41,974 nt of DNA, taken from NCBI RefSeq assembly GCF_003932495.1, contig NZ_QZMT01000016.1:1-41974 (forward strand), in the 5' to 3' direction. The DNA comes from Guyparkeria sp. SCN-R1 (lineage in GTDB: Bacteria; Pseudomonadota; Gammaproteobacteria; Halothiobacillales; Halothiobacillaceae). Position 1 is the stretch's first letter; every line of letters begins with the position of its first letter. The notes under the pieces were generated by a model, which saw only the letters and a program-made list of their open reading frames with translations, was not told the DNA's origin and ran no database searches. Made by a program: the position numbers and the translations under genes. This document shows positions 3,535 through 38,112 of this stretch, piece after piece.

Positions 3535-4326
3535 ATGCCGACCAAGGGAACGACACAAACACACCACCGCCCCGGCGACCTCGCCGCGAACCCCGCGCTG
3601 GGCTCGTCCCGCGTATTGCCGATCGCCATCGGGCTGGCCGTGCTGGCCCACGTCGGCCTGCTGCTACTCGAAATCACCCGCCCCGAAGCCGAACGGCGCC
3701 CGGTCATCGAGATCACCCTGGATGCCCCCGAGGCTGAACGCAGCGTTGATGCGGGCCGGGAGACCGATGCCGTCAATCGCGAGCTGCCGGCCGACCCGAT
3801 GCTCGCCGGTCAGCGCGGCCCGGACAGCCCCACCGACACCCTCAAGGAAGACGGGCAGGGCCCGCAGCAGGAAGGTGCCTGGGCGGCGAGCGACACGCCG
3901 CGCCGCATCTCCACCCAGGATCAGATCGACCAGCTCTACGAACAAGTCAACGAGGCACTGCGCACCGGCTACGCCACCAGCCGCACGCAGGGCGGCCCTG
4001 CCGGGCGCTATCTCGCACGCTGGAAGCGCCAGGTCGAGGCCTACGGCAATCAGCATTATCCCGATGCGCTGGTGCAGCAGAACCTCTCGGGACAGGTGAT
4101 CCTCGAGGTGACCATCGGCAAGGGCGGGCACGTGCTCAACCTCGCCATTCGCCAGTCGTCCGGCAACCCGATCCTCGACAACGCCGCACGCAACCTCCTG
4201 CAGGCCGCTGCCCCCTATCCGGCGTTCCCCGACGAACTGGCCGCCCGGCACGATCGCCTGGTGATCACGCGCACCTGGGTCTTCACCAGCGACCGCCGGC
4301 TGCTCGACGAGGCGACAAGCCCTTGA
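3535..4326 (+). CDS. TonB-family energy transducer
   Basis: A 263-residue inner-membrane protein of the TonB family, which couples the proton-motive force through ExbB/ExbD to outer-membrane receptors. Residues ~26-46 form one transmembrane segment (VLPIAIGLAVLAHVGLLLLE). A variable, charged periplasmic linker follows. The C-terminal ~90 residues carry a TonB_C-type domain (HYPDALVQQNLSGQVILEVT...SSGNPILDNAA). The usual Pro-rich X-Pro repeats are weak, so it may be one of the TonB paralogues found beside gshB in many gammaproteobacteria rather than the siderophore TonB. It starts 26 bp after apbE. No exbB or exbD is present in the window. Confidence 0.8.
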   Translation: MPTKGTTQTHHRPGDLAANPALGSSRVLPIAIGLAVLAHVGLLLLEITRPEAERRPVIEITLDAPEAERSVDAGRETDAVNRELPADPMLAGQRGPDSPTDTLKEDGQGPQQEGAWAASDTPRRISTQDQIDQLYEQVNEALRTGYATSRTQGGPAGRYLARWKRQVEAYGNQHYPDALVQQNLSGQVILEVTIGKGGHVLNLAIRQSSGNPILDNAARNLLQAAAPYPAFPDELAARHDRLVITRTWVFTSDRRLLDEATSP

Positions 4327-4356
4327 TTGACAACCGACAGCCCCATTCGGCGGGCG

Positions 4357-4385
4357 TTGCGCTCACCGGACACCGCCCCTATACT
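4357..4385 (+). promoter_or_regulatory. Sigma-70 promoter upstream of dksA
   Basis: A -35 TTGCGC (4357-4362) and -10 TATACT (4380-4385) have a 17-bp spacer. The start would be near 4392, leaving a leader of about 170 nt before the dksA ATG. The remaining 4386-4561 holds no gene that I can recognise. Confidence 0.55.
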
Positions 4386-4561
4386 TGCCCGTCGCCCGTT
4401 CTCGGCCACGGACCGGAGGACGAGGCAGGCAGCGGCCCCGGCGCGATCCGCGCGATTGCACAACGTCCGGGGCGGCCCCGAAAGGGCCCGTTCCGCGAGT
4501 CGTCATTCGGCGCTTTCACATTCAATTACAGCGTCTGCTCGGGCAGAGGTGGTGGATAAAC

Positions 4562-4978
4562 ATGGCAGTTGAACTCCCGGAAGGTTACAAGCCCTCGGAA
4601 GACGAGGAATACATGAACCCGATGCAGCTGGAGTACTTCCGGCAGAAGCTCATGACCTGGCGCGACCAGTTGATGGTCGAGTCGGATTCGACCATCAACC
4701 ACCTGCGCGAAGAGAACTGGCAGGAGCCCGACATCAACGATCGCGCCACGCTGGAATCCGACGCCGCGCTCGAGCTGCGCACCCGCGATCGTTATCGCAA
4801 GCTGATCAACAAGATCGACAAGGCACTCAAGCGCATCAACGACGGCGATTACGGCTTCTGCGAGGAGACCGGTGACGAGATCGGCCTCAAGCGCCTGGAA
4901 GCCCGCCCGATCGCCACCCTGACGATCGAGGCCCAGGAGCGCCACGAGCGCCTCGAGCGTGTCCAGCGCGATGATTGA
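4562..4978 (+). CDS. dksA: DksA-type RNA polymerase-binding regulator, Cys-poor
   Basis: DksA binds the RNA polymerase secondary channel and works with ppGpp to adjust rRNA, tRNA and amino-acid promoters. The start at 4562 gives 138 residues beginning MAVELPEGYKPSEDEEYMNP. The coiled-coil tip DINDRA keeps the family D-x-x-D-x-A residues that reach the active site. The C-terminal globular part reads YGFCEETGDEIGLKRLEARPIATLTIEAQERHE, so three of the four zinc-finger cysteines of E. coli DksA are replaced and only one Cys remains. This resembles the zinc-independent DksA forms known from Pseudomonas DksA2 and alphaproteobacteria. Its stop overlaps the next gene. Confidence 0.9.
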   Translation: MAVELPEGYKPSEDEEYMNPMQLEYFRQKLMTWRDQLMVESDSTINHLREENWQEPDINDRATLESDAALELRTRDRYRKLINKIDKALKRINDGDYGFCEETGDEIGLKRLEARPIATLTIEAQERHERLERVQRDD

Positions 4979-5552
4979 TGCGGTACGCCGTCTCGCGGCT
5001 GCCGCTCTGGCCGCCGCGCTGACACTGACGGCCCTGCCGGCAGCCGCCGACACCCAGGTGCGGCTGAATACCAGTCACGGCGCCATCCTCATCGAGCTGT
5101 TCGACGACAAGGCACCTGCCACGGTCGACAACTTCCTCGCCTATGTCCGTGACGGGTTCTACGAGGACACCATCTTCCACCGCGTGATCCCGGGCTTCGT
5201 CGTCCAGGTTGGCGGCTATACCGCCGACTTCGAGCGCAAGGCCACCCGGGCCCCGGTCGAGAACGAGGCCGACAACGGTCTGAAGAATCTCCATGGCACG
5301 CTATCGATGGCGCGCACCAACGACCCGGACTCGGCCACCTCGCAGTTCTTCATCAATCTCGCCGACAATGACTTCCTTGATCGTCAAGCCGGCAAGCCCG
5401 GCTATGCCGTTTTCGGCCGGGTGATCGAGGGGCTGGACAACGTCGAGGCGATCGCCGCCATCCCGACCGGGGCAGCCGGCCCGTTCCGCCAGGACGTGCC
5501 CCGCGAGACCGTGCGGATCGAATCGGCGCACATTGTCGAGCCTGCCGAATAA
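4971..5552 (+). CDS. ppiA: Periplasmic cyclophilin-type peptidyl-prolyl isomerase
   Basis: Catalyses cis/trans isomerisation of Xaa-Pro bonds in exported proteins. The ATG at 4971 overlaps the dksA stop by 8 nt and gives 193 residues; a GTG at 4959 is also possible. The N-terminus MIDAVRRLAAAALAAALTL...AAADT is a signal peptide cut after AAA. Cyclophilin signatures are clear: FHRVIPGFVVQVGG and the block SMARTNDPDSATSQFFINLA, with the active-site Arg in FHRVIPG. Length and motifs fit PpiA. It is translationally linked to dksA, an arrangement without obvious functional logic. Confidence 0.9.
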   Translation: MIDAVRRLAAAALAAALTLTALPAAADTQVRLNTSHGAILIELFDDKAPATVDNFLAYVRDGFYEDTIFHRVIPGFVVQVGGYTADFERKATRAPVENEADNGLKNLHGTLSMARTNDPDSATSQFFINLADNDFLDRQAGKPGYAVFGRVIEGLDNVEAIAAIPTGAAGPFRQDVPRETVRIESAHIVEPAE

Positions 5553-5610
5553 CCGGCGTGCAGGGGTTCCCTCTCCCTAGATCCCGCCGCCAGACCCCGT
5601 CAACGGGCGC

Positions 5611-6759
5611 ATGAACCACGAGCAACCTCAGGTCCGTTTCGTCACCCATGGCGAAGAACTCGACGCCCTGCTCGAGGCCATGCGCGCGGCTCGCTACCTG
5701 CCGCTGGACACCGAGTTCGTCCGCGAGCGCACCTACTTTCCCCAGCTCGCCCTGCTGCAAATCGCCACCAGCGACACCGTCTGGCTGGTCGACCCGATCG
5801 CCGAGCTCGATCTCACGCCCTTCTGGCAGGCGCTGGTCACGCGTGACACCCCGGTGGTCCTGCATGCCGGCGATCAGGACCTCGACCTGATCCTCACGGC
5901 CGCCGGACGACTGCCGCCGCAGGTGTTCGACACCCAGATCGCGGCCGAACTGCTCGGCATCGGCGGCCAATTGAGTTACGCGGCCCTGACCGAGGCCCTG
6001 CTTGGCACCCGTCTGGACAAGGGCGAGACACGCAGCGACTGGCTTGCCCGCCCTCTGAGCCACACGCAGCTGAACTACGCCGTGCAGGATGTCGCGCAGC
6101 TCCACGCTCTCTACCCGCTACTCGAGCAACGCCTGCAAGACGCCGGGCGCCTCGACTGGATGGCCGAAGAGATGGCACGGCAATGTGACCCGGCGCGCTT
6201 CACCCCGCCCGACGAGCAACGCTGGCAAAAGATCCGTGGCGTGCAGACGCTCAACCGGGCCGGTCTGGCGGTACTGCAGGTCCTCGCGGCCTGGCGGGAA
6301 CGGCTGGCACGCGAACAGGACCGGCCGCGCCGTTGGGTATGGGGCGACCAGGCGATGCTGGACCTCGCCCACGCCATCGCGCGACAGACCGCCAAGGCCG
6401 ACAACCCGCCGAGTGCCGAGGCCATCACCGACCAGATCATCCGCGCTCGATCCCCGCTAGGCCGGGATTCGAGCGCCCAGGACGCGCTCGGTCAGGAGAT
6501 CGCGGCGGCACTGGCCGGCGATCCGGCCGACTGGCCGCGGCTGTCGCGTCCACCGGCACTGCCGCCAGCGCAGCGCGAGCTGGTAAAATCCCGACAGGCA
6601 AGGCTGGTCACCGTCGCCGAGGAGCACGCCATCAGCCCCTCTCGGCTGGCCACCAGCGCCGAACTCAGACAACAGCTGGCCAATCCGGATCGGCCATCTA
6701 GGCTCACGCAGGGCTGGCGAGCCCCACTGCTCGCGCCCATCCTGCAGGCACCCGACTAG
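5611..6759 (+). CDS. rnd: Ribonuclease D
   Basis: 3'-5' exoribonuclease of the DEDD family that trims tRNA and other small-RNA precursors. The product is 382 residues, close to the E. coli enzyme. Exo I is LPLDTEFVRERTYFPQ (~residues 30-45), Exo II contains LHAGDQDLDLI, and Exo III reads LNYAVQDVAQL with the conserved Tyr and Asp. An HRDC-type domain follows from about residue 205 (RWQKIRGVQTL onward). The TAG stop at 6757-6759 directly abuts the first base of the inverted-repeat element at 6760. Confidence 0.93.
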   Translation: MNHEQPQVRFVTHGEELDALLEAMRAARYLPLDTEFVRERTYFPQLALLQIATSDTVWLVDPIAELDLTPFWQALVTRDTPVVLHAGDQDLDLILTAAGRLPPQVFDTQIAAELLGIGGQLSYAALTEALLGTRLDKGETRSDWLARPLSHTQLNYAVQDVAQLHALYPLLEQRLQDAGRLDWMAEEMARQCDPARFTPPDEQRWQKIRGVQTLNRAGLAVLQVLAAWRERLAREQDRPRRWVWGDQAMLDLAHAIARQTAKADNPPSAEAITDQIIRARSPLGRDSSAQDALGQEIAAALAGDPADWPRLSRPPALPPAQRELVKSRQARLVTVAEEHAISPSRLATSAELRQQLANPDRPSRLTQGWRAPLLAPILQAPD

Positions 6760-35930: not shown

Positions 35931-35945
35931 CGTTATGTTATAACG
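35931..35945. promoter_or_regulatory. Zur-like operator CGTTATGTTATAACG
   Basis: Arms CGTTAT and ATAACG are exactly complementary around a 3-nt centre. The sequence resembles the gammaproteobacterial Zur box (TGTTATA-TATAACA type). It sits 45 bp before the start of a His-rich outer-membrane protein and overlaps a possible -10 (TATAAC, 35939-35944), so Zur binding would block transcription when zinc is sufficient. Confidence 0.6.
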
Positions 35946-35989
35946 TTTGCGACATCACTAAGACCAACCTTGACCAAGGAACAAGAACC

Positions 35990-37279
35990 ATGCCCCGCCA
36001 CTTGCCGCTCCGTCTGGCCCCACTGCTCGCCGCCACCAGCGTAGTGCCCTGGGGCACCGGCCAGGCAGCCGCACTGGCACTCGACCCGACACTCACGGTC
36101 GTTCTGGACGGGGTCTACTACGATGACAATGCCGATGGCGAGGGCGACGCCCGGCTCGGCGAAACCGCCGGCATCTTCGATGCCCATGACCACGAGGCGG
36201 CCGACCACGAACACGGCCTCGAGCAGGGGTTCAATCTCCGCCACACGGAAATCTCGCTGACTGGCGGCATCGAGAAACTGCTCGATGCACGGCTGAACGT
36301 CGCCATCTACGACGGGGGCGATGTGGAAGTCGAGGAAGCCTTCCTCGCCACCACGGACCTGCCCGCCGGGCTGCGGATCAAGGCCGGCAAGTTCTACTCC
36401 GGCATCGGCTACGCCAACGAAAGACACCCGCACGACTGGGATTTCGTCGACCAGAACCTGCCCTACCGCACCCTGCTGGGTGTACACGGCCTGTCCGACA
36501 TCGGCGCACAACTCACCTGGCAACCGGCATGGGACCACGACACGCGCTTTGGCATCGAGGCCTTCCAGGGCGACAACAACGAACGTCTCGGCACCGAGGC
36601 CGACCACGCCGACGACCTGCCGGGCCGGGACGACGCCCCCGGCTTGTACACGGCGTTCGCCAAGTGGTCGCCAGCGCTCGGCCACGACCATGCCCTGCAA
36701 CTCGGCGCCTCGGCCGCCTGGTTTCGCAGTCACCAGGAATTCCATCACCACGACGAACCCGATGAGCACGGCCTGGACGGCGAGGCCCGTCTCTGGGGGC
36801 TCGATGCCACCTACGCCTTTCACGCGGACGGCGCCCACGGACAAGGCGACTGGCGCGTGGCGGCCGAATACCTAATCGCCGAGAAGAACCTCGAGGTGGC
36901 ACATCACGCCAGCGACCCGAGCGTGATCGGCCAGGCGCGAGACTTCACCGAGGACGGCCTGTACGTGCAGGCCACCTACGGGATTGCCCCGCGCTGGGAG
37001 GTCGGACTGCGCTACGACGCGGTTGGCTTCACCAACGAGAAACGCGGCCCGCTAGCCGCTTCGAATGCCGACTACGACGAGAGCGACCGCTGGACGGCGG
37101 CCGCCACCTGGCAGATCAGCGATACCAGCCGACTGCGCGCCCAGGTCGCACGGGTCAGCGCCGCCCTGGAAACCGACCGGGAGCACTACACCCAGTTCTA
37201 CCTGCAATACCAGTGGCGCTTCTCGCTCGGCCAACGCTCGGACCCTCACGCCGGGCATCACCACGGTCACGATCACTGA
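35990..37279 (+). CDS. His-rich outer-membrane beta-barrel protein, probably zinc-regulated
   Basis: A 429-residue exported protein; AAGGA precedes the ATG at 35990. A signal peptide (MPRHLPLRLAPLLAATSVVPWGTGQAAA) is followed by alternating beta-strand segments typical of porins, such as LLDARLNVAIYDGGDVEVEEAF and GLRIKAGKFYSGIGYANERHPHDWDFVD. His/Asp/Glu clusters occur at several sites (FDAHDHEAADHEHG, HQEFHHHDEPDEHG), and the C-terminus is DPHAGHHHGHDH. The Zur-like box and the His clusters suggest zinc capture or passage across the outer membrane. There is no TonB box or plug domain, so it is not a typical TonB-dependent receptor. Confidence 0.8.
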   Translation: MPRHLPLRLAPLLAATSVVPWGTGQAAALALDPTLTVVLDGVYYDDNADGEGDARLGETAGIFDAHDHEAADHEHGLEQGFNLRHTEISLTGGIEKLLDARLNVAIYDGGDVEVEEAFLATTDLPAGLRIKAGKFYSGIGYANERHPHDWDFVDQNLPYRTLLGVHGLSDIGAQLTWQPAWDHDTRFGIEAFQGDNNERLGTEADHADDLPGRDDAPGLYTAFAKWSPALGHDHALQLGASAAWFRSHQEFHHHDEPDEHGLDGEARLWGLDATYAFHADGAHGQGDWRVAAEYLIAEKNLEVAHHASDPSVIGQARDFTEDGLYVQATYGIAPRWEVGLRYDAVGFTNEKRGPLAASNADYDESDRWTAAATWQISDTSRLRAQVARVSAALETDREHYTQFYLQYQWRFSLGQRSDPHAGHHHGHDH

Positions 37280-37353: not shown

Positions 37354-38112
37354 GTGACCGACCCGAACCAGCCCAACCAGACCCCGCCGACCGACGAACC
37401 CATCACCCGGCCGGACGAGCCACGTCGCGGCATCGGGTGCCTCGGGGTGAGCCTGATCATCGTGGGCACGATGATCGTCACCCTGGTGCTCGGGGCAATC
37501 GCCGTACGCTACTTTCTTTTCCCGGATCAGTTCGAGCCGGTCGAACTGAACGCGGCCGAGCAACAGACACTCGACGACAAGCTTGCCACCATCGGCGTTC
37601 AGCCCGACCAGCCCTCGCCCCGAGCGGGGGATCGGTTTTCCTCGCGACCGGAGGAGTTCGATGACCAGGGTCGACTCAAGCCCGAGCCATACCGGGAGAA
37701 GGACGCCCCGCGCGAGGTGCAGTTCGACGAACGCGAGCTCAATGCCATCATTGCCCGCGACCCGGAGATGGCCCGGCGACTGGCCATCGACCTGTCCGAG
37801 GACCTGGTCAGCGTCAAGCTACTGGTGCCGCTGCCACCGGACTTCCCAGTCATGGGCGGGCAGACGCTACGCCTGAACGCGGGCGCCGAAGTGCGGCAAG
37901 TGCCGACGCCGGAAGGATCCCGGCTGGCGGTGGTCGTCACCGGCGTGAGCCTGTGGGGCGTGCCGCTGCCGAATACCTGGATCGGCGGGCTCAAGGGCGT
38001 CGACCTGGTCGCGGAATTCGGTGGCGAGCCGGGCTTCTGGCAATCCCTCGCCGAGGGCGTCGAGTCCGTTGACGTCGAGGAGGGCCAGCTGGTATTCCGG
38101 CTGGCCGAATGA
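37354..38112 (+). CDS. Single-pass membrane protein of unknown function
   Basis: A 252-residue protein from GTG 37354, which follows GAGGAC. A Pro-rich cytoplasmic N-terminus (~1-28) precedes one transmembrane helix (GVSLIIVGTMIVTLVLGAIAV, ~32-52). The remainder is probably periplasmic: a charged linker, then a beta-rich domain from ~120 (REVQFDERELNAIIARDPEMARRLAIDLSEDLVSVKLLVPLP...). I do not recognise an enzyme motif. The region resembles membrane-anchored lipid- or polymer-binding domains only in general shape. Neighbours give no clear clue. Confidence 0.78.
   Translation: MTDPNQPNQTPPTDEPITRPDEPRRGIGCLGVSLIIVGTMIVTLVLGAIAVRYFLFPDQFEPVELNAAEQQTLDDKLATIGVQPDQPSPRAGDRFSSRPEEFDDQGRLKPEPYREKDAPREVQFDERELNAIIARDPEMARRLAIDLSEDLVSVKLLVPLPPDFPVMGGQTLRLNAGAEVRQVPTPEGSRLAVVVTGVSLWGVPLPNTWIGGLKGVDLVAEFGGEPGFWQSLAEGVESVDVEEGQLVFRLAE

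Follow-up and report, generated by a model that had tools for sequence, protein, structure and literature searches.

The passage of zinc across the outer membrane of Gram-negative bacteria is commonly put down to TonB-dependent receptors, together with leakage through general porins. Receptors of the ZnuD type are 22-stranded barrels of about 650–700 aa, and L3 is the constriction loop of 16-stranded porins. MnoP is an Mn2+ channel controlled by metal starvation, for which we know of no ABC operon; MspD is an octameric mycobacterial porin of another fold, and AztD belongs to the zinc ABC importer AztABC(D).

As far as the excerpts of the sources go, MnoP of Bradyrhizobium japonicum is a manganese importer (PMC6011978); the porin MspD of Mycobacterium smegmatis is induced when zinc is scarce or Zur is lost (PMC13098993); psp, a PF07396-like porin under Fur control, is a prediction of 2004 for delta-proteobacteria (PMC545781); and the abbreviations of a Zur-regulon table include 'oprD: outer-membrane porin' (review PMC6103462). 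The matches listed for the open literature held no Zur-controlled zinc porin of Gram-negatives, and a search of the same literature for 'zinc-specific porin' or variants returned no paper; an earlier prediction may exist in RegPrecise or in subscription journals.

The window, that is, the whole stretch of 41,974 nucleotides from Guyparkeria sp. SCN-R1 analysed here, carries a porin gene that resembles each of these systems in part. Like ZnuD and other zinc TonB-dependent receptors, its product is an outer-membrane protein with a Zur box, but it is plug-less, has 429 residues and 16 predicted strands, and would need no TonB. Like MnoP, to which we liken it by description only, it would be a TonB-independent outer-membrane channel for divalent metal, with another metal and another regulator. 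With psp it shares a PF07396-like porin under a metal regulator of the Fur family, but psp concerns iron and a Fur box, and the excerpt on psp names no ABC partner. MspD is alike in its regulation by zinc starvation and Zur, but has a different fold. OprP and OprO (Porin_O_P, PF07396) belong to the same barrel class, with 16 predicted strands, and are the best structural matches; they have an arginine ladder, whereas the window porin is acidic (by composition, not at ladder positions), has histidine-rich loops and an HxH in L3, and is linked to a zinc box and, through its homologues, to ZnuA-like genes. As to AztABC(D), the binding proteins of the two operons scanned gene by gene are nearest AztC, below cut-off, and the partner gene here is a porin, AztD not being seen in these loci. 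We consider it likely that the window gene encodes a Zur-repressed, TonB-independent outer-membrane porin for zinc, or for zinc and similar divalent ions, that now serves a separate ZnuABC.

A probable OprP/OprO-type porin

35990–37279, + strand: porin gene, 429 aa, with a signal-peptide-like start (by eye) and then a predicted 16-stranded barrel

In Pfam, the protein matched Porin_O_P (PF07396) at 28.9 bits, above the gathering cut-off of 20.9, while a TonB barrel model reached 25.7 bits, below its cut-off of 27. The Plug domain PF07715 had no match in the porin, which is not among the four Plug matches of the genome. The initial annotation had read the protein as a barrel lacking a TonB plug, and these domain searches agree. 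An AlphaFold2 model made from five sequences supplied the strand count that the annotation had proposed to obtain by structure prediction: 16 strands, in a model of moderate confidence (pLDDT 67, pTM 0.70) with local pLDDT below 50 in parts of L1, L4, L5 and the tail. OprP was the leading Foldseek match, and a second structure aligner placed OprO/OprP at the top (Z 27.9 and 27.8), with the next other protein at 24.4. On this model the protein is probably a plug-less, 16-stranded porin of the OprP/OprO type, and the proposal that it stands outside the usual ZnuD class is supported by Pfam, strand count and structure matches alike. A ZnuD-like receptor was ruled out by the absence of a plug, the size and the predicted strands. 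A sequence search of the PDB gave three weak matches only (OprP at E 0.13), and reading a function from those relatives was set aside for that reason.

The Pfam family name and the best structure matches would also suit an ordinary anion or phosphate porin, similar to OprP/OprO, that stands under Zur by chance. This we regard as highly improbable, given an acidic composition (70 D+E against 31 K+R), a median acidic excess of 24 across 120 aligned rows, and homologues that adjoin ZnuA-like genes.

A Zur-type operator shared with znuA

35931–35945, no strand assigned: Zur-type operator CGTTATGTTATAACG, a 7-1-7 inverted repeat with one mismatch
35932–35944: operator core GTTATNNNATAAC, the pattern of the genome-wide search
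35939–35944, + strand: possible -10 hexamer TATAAC, inside the operator, weak

The operator ends 44 bases before the porin ATG (35990). Across the genome (2,418,072 bases in 68 contigs) the core GTTATNNNATAAC occurs in two places, at the porin gene and at C22:17162, the latter directly 5' of a histidine-rich znuA with an ABC ATPase gene after it; the reversed pattern, used as a control, occurs nowhere. Aligned upstream regions of four sequences have 13 invariant box bases amid variable surroundings. The pattern is present in 16 of 27 relative genomes, and the 11 same-genus genomes hold 20 sites, compared with 2 of the control pattern (summed from the table). Four further boxes of relatives were looked at: before znuA in G009 and G011 (by eye), before a ZigA-type zinc GTPase gene in G009 (582.6 bits against a cut-off of 600), and on contig C6 of G001, where no clear zinc gene adjoins. 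Since the same core precedes znuA or other zinc genes in the window genome and its relatives, the operator is of the zinc-regulon type by its company and not by shape alone. A zur candidate is found in a FUR-family gene on C29, for which Zur was the sole NCBIfam match at 1e-10 (149.7 bits, cut-off 167). Judged by the promoter operator and this zur homologue, CGTTATGTTATAACG is a Zur-type operator and the porin gene a probable member of the regulon, much as the initial annotation, which saw a Zur-like box before a histidine-rich outer-membrane protein, had it.

According to a review (PMC10393844, in excerpt), the Zur boxes of P. aeruginosa are palindromes of 17 bases, frequently overlapping the -10. 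A similar overlap had been suggested here, and TATAAC does lie within the box; a sigma-70 consensus scan found no full promoter above threshold around the operator, so that the hexamer stays a possible -10.

Homologues beside metal ABC importers

We gathered 122 distinct homologues. Of 57 relatives 28 gave a match, and of 369 genomes of the class 110 did; the set omits 11 places with a fragment or a second match. Downstream neighbours were counted for 116 of them, the six with less than 400 bases of downstream flank being dropped. A ZnuA-like gene lies directly downstream on the same strand in 104 of the 116, typically after a gap of 5–30 bases; in the remaining 12 it lies further on (three) or is absent (nine). 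In many homologues a ZnuB-like permease continues the series. Gene-by-gene scans of two loci, Halomonadaceae L036 and same-genus G009, gave porin, ZnuA-family protein (PF01297), ABC ATPase and ABC-3 permease in both. On a Sulfurovum mangrovi record the genes annotated immediately after the homologue are those of a zinc ABC substrate-binding protein and a metal ABC permease, and Vibrio campbellii has two perfect boxes immediately upstream of porin, binding protein and permease, in this order. A plasmid collection gave two distant matches only, both informative for gene context, and no close relatives. By gene order, the porin elsewhere heads a metal-import operon, which is new with respect to the initial annotation. 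The zinc-starvation switch, together with relatives beside a zinc-type import pump, points to an outer-membrane zinc route without an energised receptor.

The family models leave the metal unsettled. For the two scanned binding proteins the best NCBIfam model was zinc AztC, with manganese models next and all below cut-off; AztA came first or second for the two ATPases, again below cut-off; and the genome's own ZnuA fits best with a manganese model, below cut-off.

In G009, a single box stands before five consecutive genes, for a ZnuD-like TonB-dependent receptor (TBDT), the porin, the binding protein, the ATPase and the permease. The receptor gene of this locus (L188, G009:C1:325203-333977) lies at 3857-5911 on the - strand and the box at 5979; the receptor scores 196 bits with the ZnuD model, far below the cut-off of 950. 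As the receptor gene sits between box and porin, the two appear to belong to one Zur-controlled operon.

Some loci have further genes before the porin. A small frame of about 90–125 codons, with a hydrophobic start, His/Cys and in some cases C..C, precedes it in L093, L094, L099, L109, L140, L151, L159, L164 and L190 (3842-4198); the Sulfurovum frame, the only one scanned, matched nothing in Pfam or NCBIfam. The small upstream frame is possibly a metal-binding partner. L098 and L099 have tandem porin pairs in which the first copy is without the GAHGAHxF tail, and L108 has, on the strand of the porin and about 0.7–1.2 kb upstream of it, a Zur-like open frame (by eye). One pass over the homologue loci covered all except L001-L003, L021, L028, L032, L033 and L038-L088.

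Histidine clusters and loop L3

36185–36214, + strand: His/acid cluster 1, residues 66–75 (HDHEAADHEH), in predicted extracellular loop L1, at low local model confidence
36398–36493, + strand: predicted constriction loop L3, residues 137–168, with H146, H148, D151 and D154 (HPHDWDFVD)
36743–36769, + strand: His/acid cluster 2, residues 252–260 with H248 just before (248–260 around HHHDEPDEH), in predicted extracellular loop L5, at low local confidence
37229–37276, + strand: C-terminal tail, residues 414–429, ending HAGHHHGHDH where the family has GAHGAHxF, predicted periplasmic

The porin has 29 His in 429 residues. Three His clusters had been described, one of them at the extreme C-terminus beyond the last strand, and we recover them at residues 66–75, 248–260 and 420–429 (HAGHHHGHDH), the last of these past the final predicted strand (397–413). 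In the model, clusters 1 and 2 are predicted to lie in outer loops L1 and L5 and the tail in the periplasm. By strand count, segment 137–168 between strands 5 and 6 is L3, which in the window porin would be folded inward. Among 120 aligned rows (the window porin and 119 homologues), H146 is kept in 120, H148 in 117, D151 in 103 and D154 in 110, while E115 is found in 119 and E116 in 116.

The histidines could also mean that the protein is mainly a surface or periplasmic zinc buffer, storing or concentrating zinc in its clusters. Besides the 29 His in three clusters, box-bearing members are richer in loop histidines than other members (4.7 against 1.1 in L1, 3.8 against 1.6 in L5), a comparison that ignores the kinship of the bearers. 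Such a buffer nevertheless appears unlikely to us: conservation is strongest in the barrel and L3 and not in the clusters, the fold is that of a porin, and homologues share an operon with an importer.

Distribution of the box and breadth of the metal

A box was counted when 9 or all 10 of the 10 core bases matched no more than 300 bases before the start; the counts covered 118 of the 122 homologues, those with less than 150 bases upstream being dropped. Such a box precedes 12 of 16 counted members of the window's family, against 0.07 expected from dinucleotide shuffles, and 10 of 102 homologues outside it (0.44 expected), one of these ten being same-genus L034; inside coding windows there were none in 364. 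The initial annotation had named absence of the box upstream of orthologues as what would refute it, and in the window's family the box is kept. A chance box was ruled out by the genome count, the conservation in orthologues and the shuffles.

Four of the 16 family members have fewer than nine matches. L019 and L020 have 7 and 8; L188 (G009) has no box adjoining the porin, its box lying 2.2 kb upstream before the receptor gene; and L010 (G007) is a broken copy whose start is misplaced in the count; 72 bases upstream of its matched stretch there is a site with 9 of 10. Perfect boxes are found within 300 bases in 12 of 117 homologues and at 300–600 bases in 6 of 115, and in successive bins beyond 600 bases in 1/112, 1/94, 0/92 and 1/88. 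Several of the boxes at 300–600 bases have a small open frame containing His/Cys (~90–125 codons) between box and porin.

Among the 119 aligned homologues, 99 are without a box of at least nine matches within 300 bases (in 4 of the 99 the upstream sequence is too short to judge). Zur-type boxes are thus the rule in the window's family and scattered outside it, where most homologues have none, and much of the wider family is perhaps under other regulation or concerned with other metals. It could be, then, that the family comprises general porins for divalent metals (Mn, Fe, Co, Ni, Zn), that the regulator and not the pore sets the metal, and that in the window this regulator happens to be Zur. 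The scanned binding proteins also match manganese models, all below cut-off; almost every row has the HxH..D..D of L3, whether or not it bears a box, and the motif is for that reason not zinc-specific; and in an excerpted report the Fur-controlled psp of Geobacter and Desulfuromonas is predicted to concern iron (PMC545781). Against this, a Fur-like site of at least 14 matches was found in none of 95 box-less homologues, on which ground Fur control of these was set aside, and zinc AztC is the best NCBIfam model, below cut-off, for the two scanned binding proteins. We give the general-metal reading slightly less than an even chance; it overlaps with that of a porin for zinc or zinc and similar ions, and the two likelihoods are not exclusive.

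Absence of the ABC genes from the window lineage

37354–38112, + strand: conserved hypothetical gene flanking the porin; in four same-genus genomes three ABC genes separate the porin from this same gene

The locus reads gpmI, box, porin, binding protein, ATPase, permease and conserved hypothetical in G002, G004, G008 and G009, with an SDR gene after these where the stretch extends far enough. A divergent chemotaxis receptor gene (by eye) precedes the box in G002 and G009 and is in fragments in G008, and G009 has its extra receptor gene after the box. In the window, G001 and G005 the three ABC genes are missing between porin and conserved hypothetical, porin and box being kept; unlike 104 of 116 homologues, the window porin has no ZnuA-like gene directly downstream. 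Because ABC genes adjoin most homologues, the comparison suggests that the three were lost in the window lineage and not gained elsewhere. A search at E 1e-15 did not find the cognate binding protein in the window genome or in G001, G005, G006, G007 or G010 (G006 79% and G007 87% complete), and a move elsewhere in the window genome was rejected, the only matches being weak ones at znuA (C22) and at a second substrate-binding protein locus (C1).

That second metal ABC locus (G000:C1:212932; L192, L193) has an ATPase and a permease that resemble manganese/iron and zinc models, below cut-off, and no box of at least nine matches. The four TBDTs of the window genome resemble enterobactin-type, B12, siderophore and copper receptors, and none matches ZnuD well; since the stretches fetched for them hold no box of at least nine matches, the porin is the only outer-membrane protein found here under a Zur-type box, weaker receptor boxes being possible.

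The porin copy at G007:C42 (L010, L033), in a genome where the binding protein was not found, is interrupted by a stop or frameshift; porin copies without the ABC genes can thus decay. Together with the missing cognate binding protein of the window genome, the broken partnerless copy would fit a relic, a porin still expressed and unimportant since the ABC genes were lost. The window gene, however, is intact, with a dN/dS of 0.16 against its nearest orthologue (G001) and of 0.085 over residues 128–177, and the box core is intact in G000, G001, G005 and G006. On these comparisons the porin is under purifying selection, and we find a relic quite unlikely.

The C-terminal tail and the binding protein

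A tail of the form H..H.[FY], mostly GAHGAHxF or near it, ends 107 of the 122 homologues. Among the 116 with enough flank, it is present in 105 of 107 that have a binding protein in reach and in none of nine that do not (Fisher p 7e-12, kinship ignored); the two that lack it despite a binding protein are each the first copy of a tandem porin pair, and one of the nine partnerless porins is the broken L010. In a tree of 53 of the 122 porins, made by a quick method with the tail excluded (profile score of at least 395, truncated rows dropped), tail and binding protein each change three times, always together (sign test p 0.25). With only three independent changes the association falls short of significance, and we treat it as a lead, not as a result. 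A tentative and on balance doubtful extension is that porin and binding protein form one TonB-free line, in which the periplasmic GAHGAHxF tail would pass zinc to the cognate ZnuA-like protein or dock it, and that after the loss of this protein the tail was freed to become the His-rich metal tail (HAGHHHGHDH) serving the separate ZnuABC.

A putative passive route for zinc

The favoured explanation, a Zur-repressed porin for zinc or for zinc and similar divalent ions, would work as follows. With zinc plentiful, Zn-Zur would occupy the operator overlapping the possible promoter and block transcription; with zinc short, the porin would be made and open a low-resistance zinc path into the periplasm. 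The His/acid-rich outer loops L1 and L5 may gather divalent metal, which the HxH..D..D of the inward-folded L3 would let through, and the periplasmic zinc would then be taken up by the separate ZnuABC. Flux would be driven by the high-affinity periplasmic binding protein, with diffusion replacing TonB. The ancestral operon would have been under Zur control and have comprised the porin, a ZnuA/AztC-like binding protein, an ATPase and a permease; the window lineage would then have shed the three ABC genes.

If this is true, a porin family that stands beside ZnuA-like importers across the class, and is partly wired to Zur, would constitute a dedicated passive route for zinc. The solitary porin of the window would then be a natural experiment, in which the pump is gone, pore and operator persist, and the periplasmic tail is different as well.
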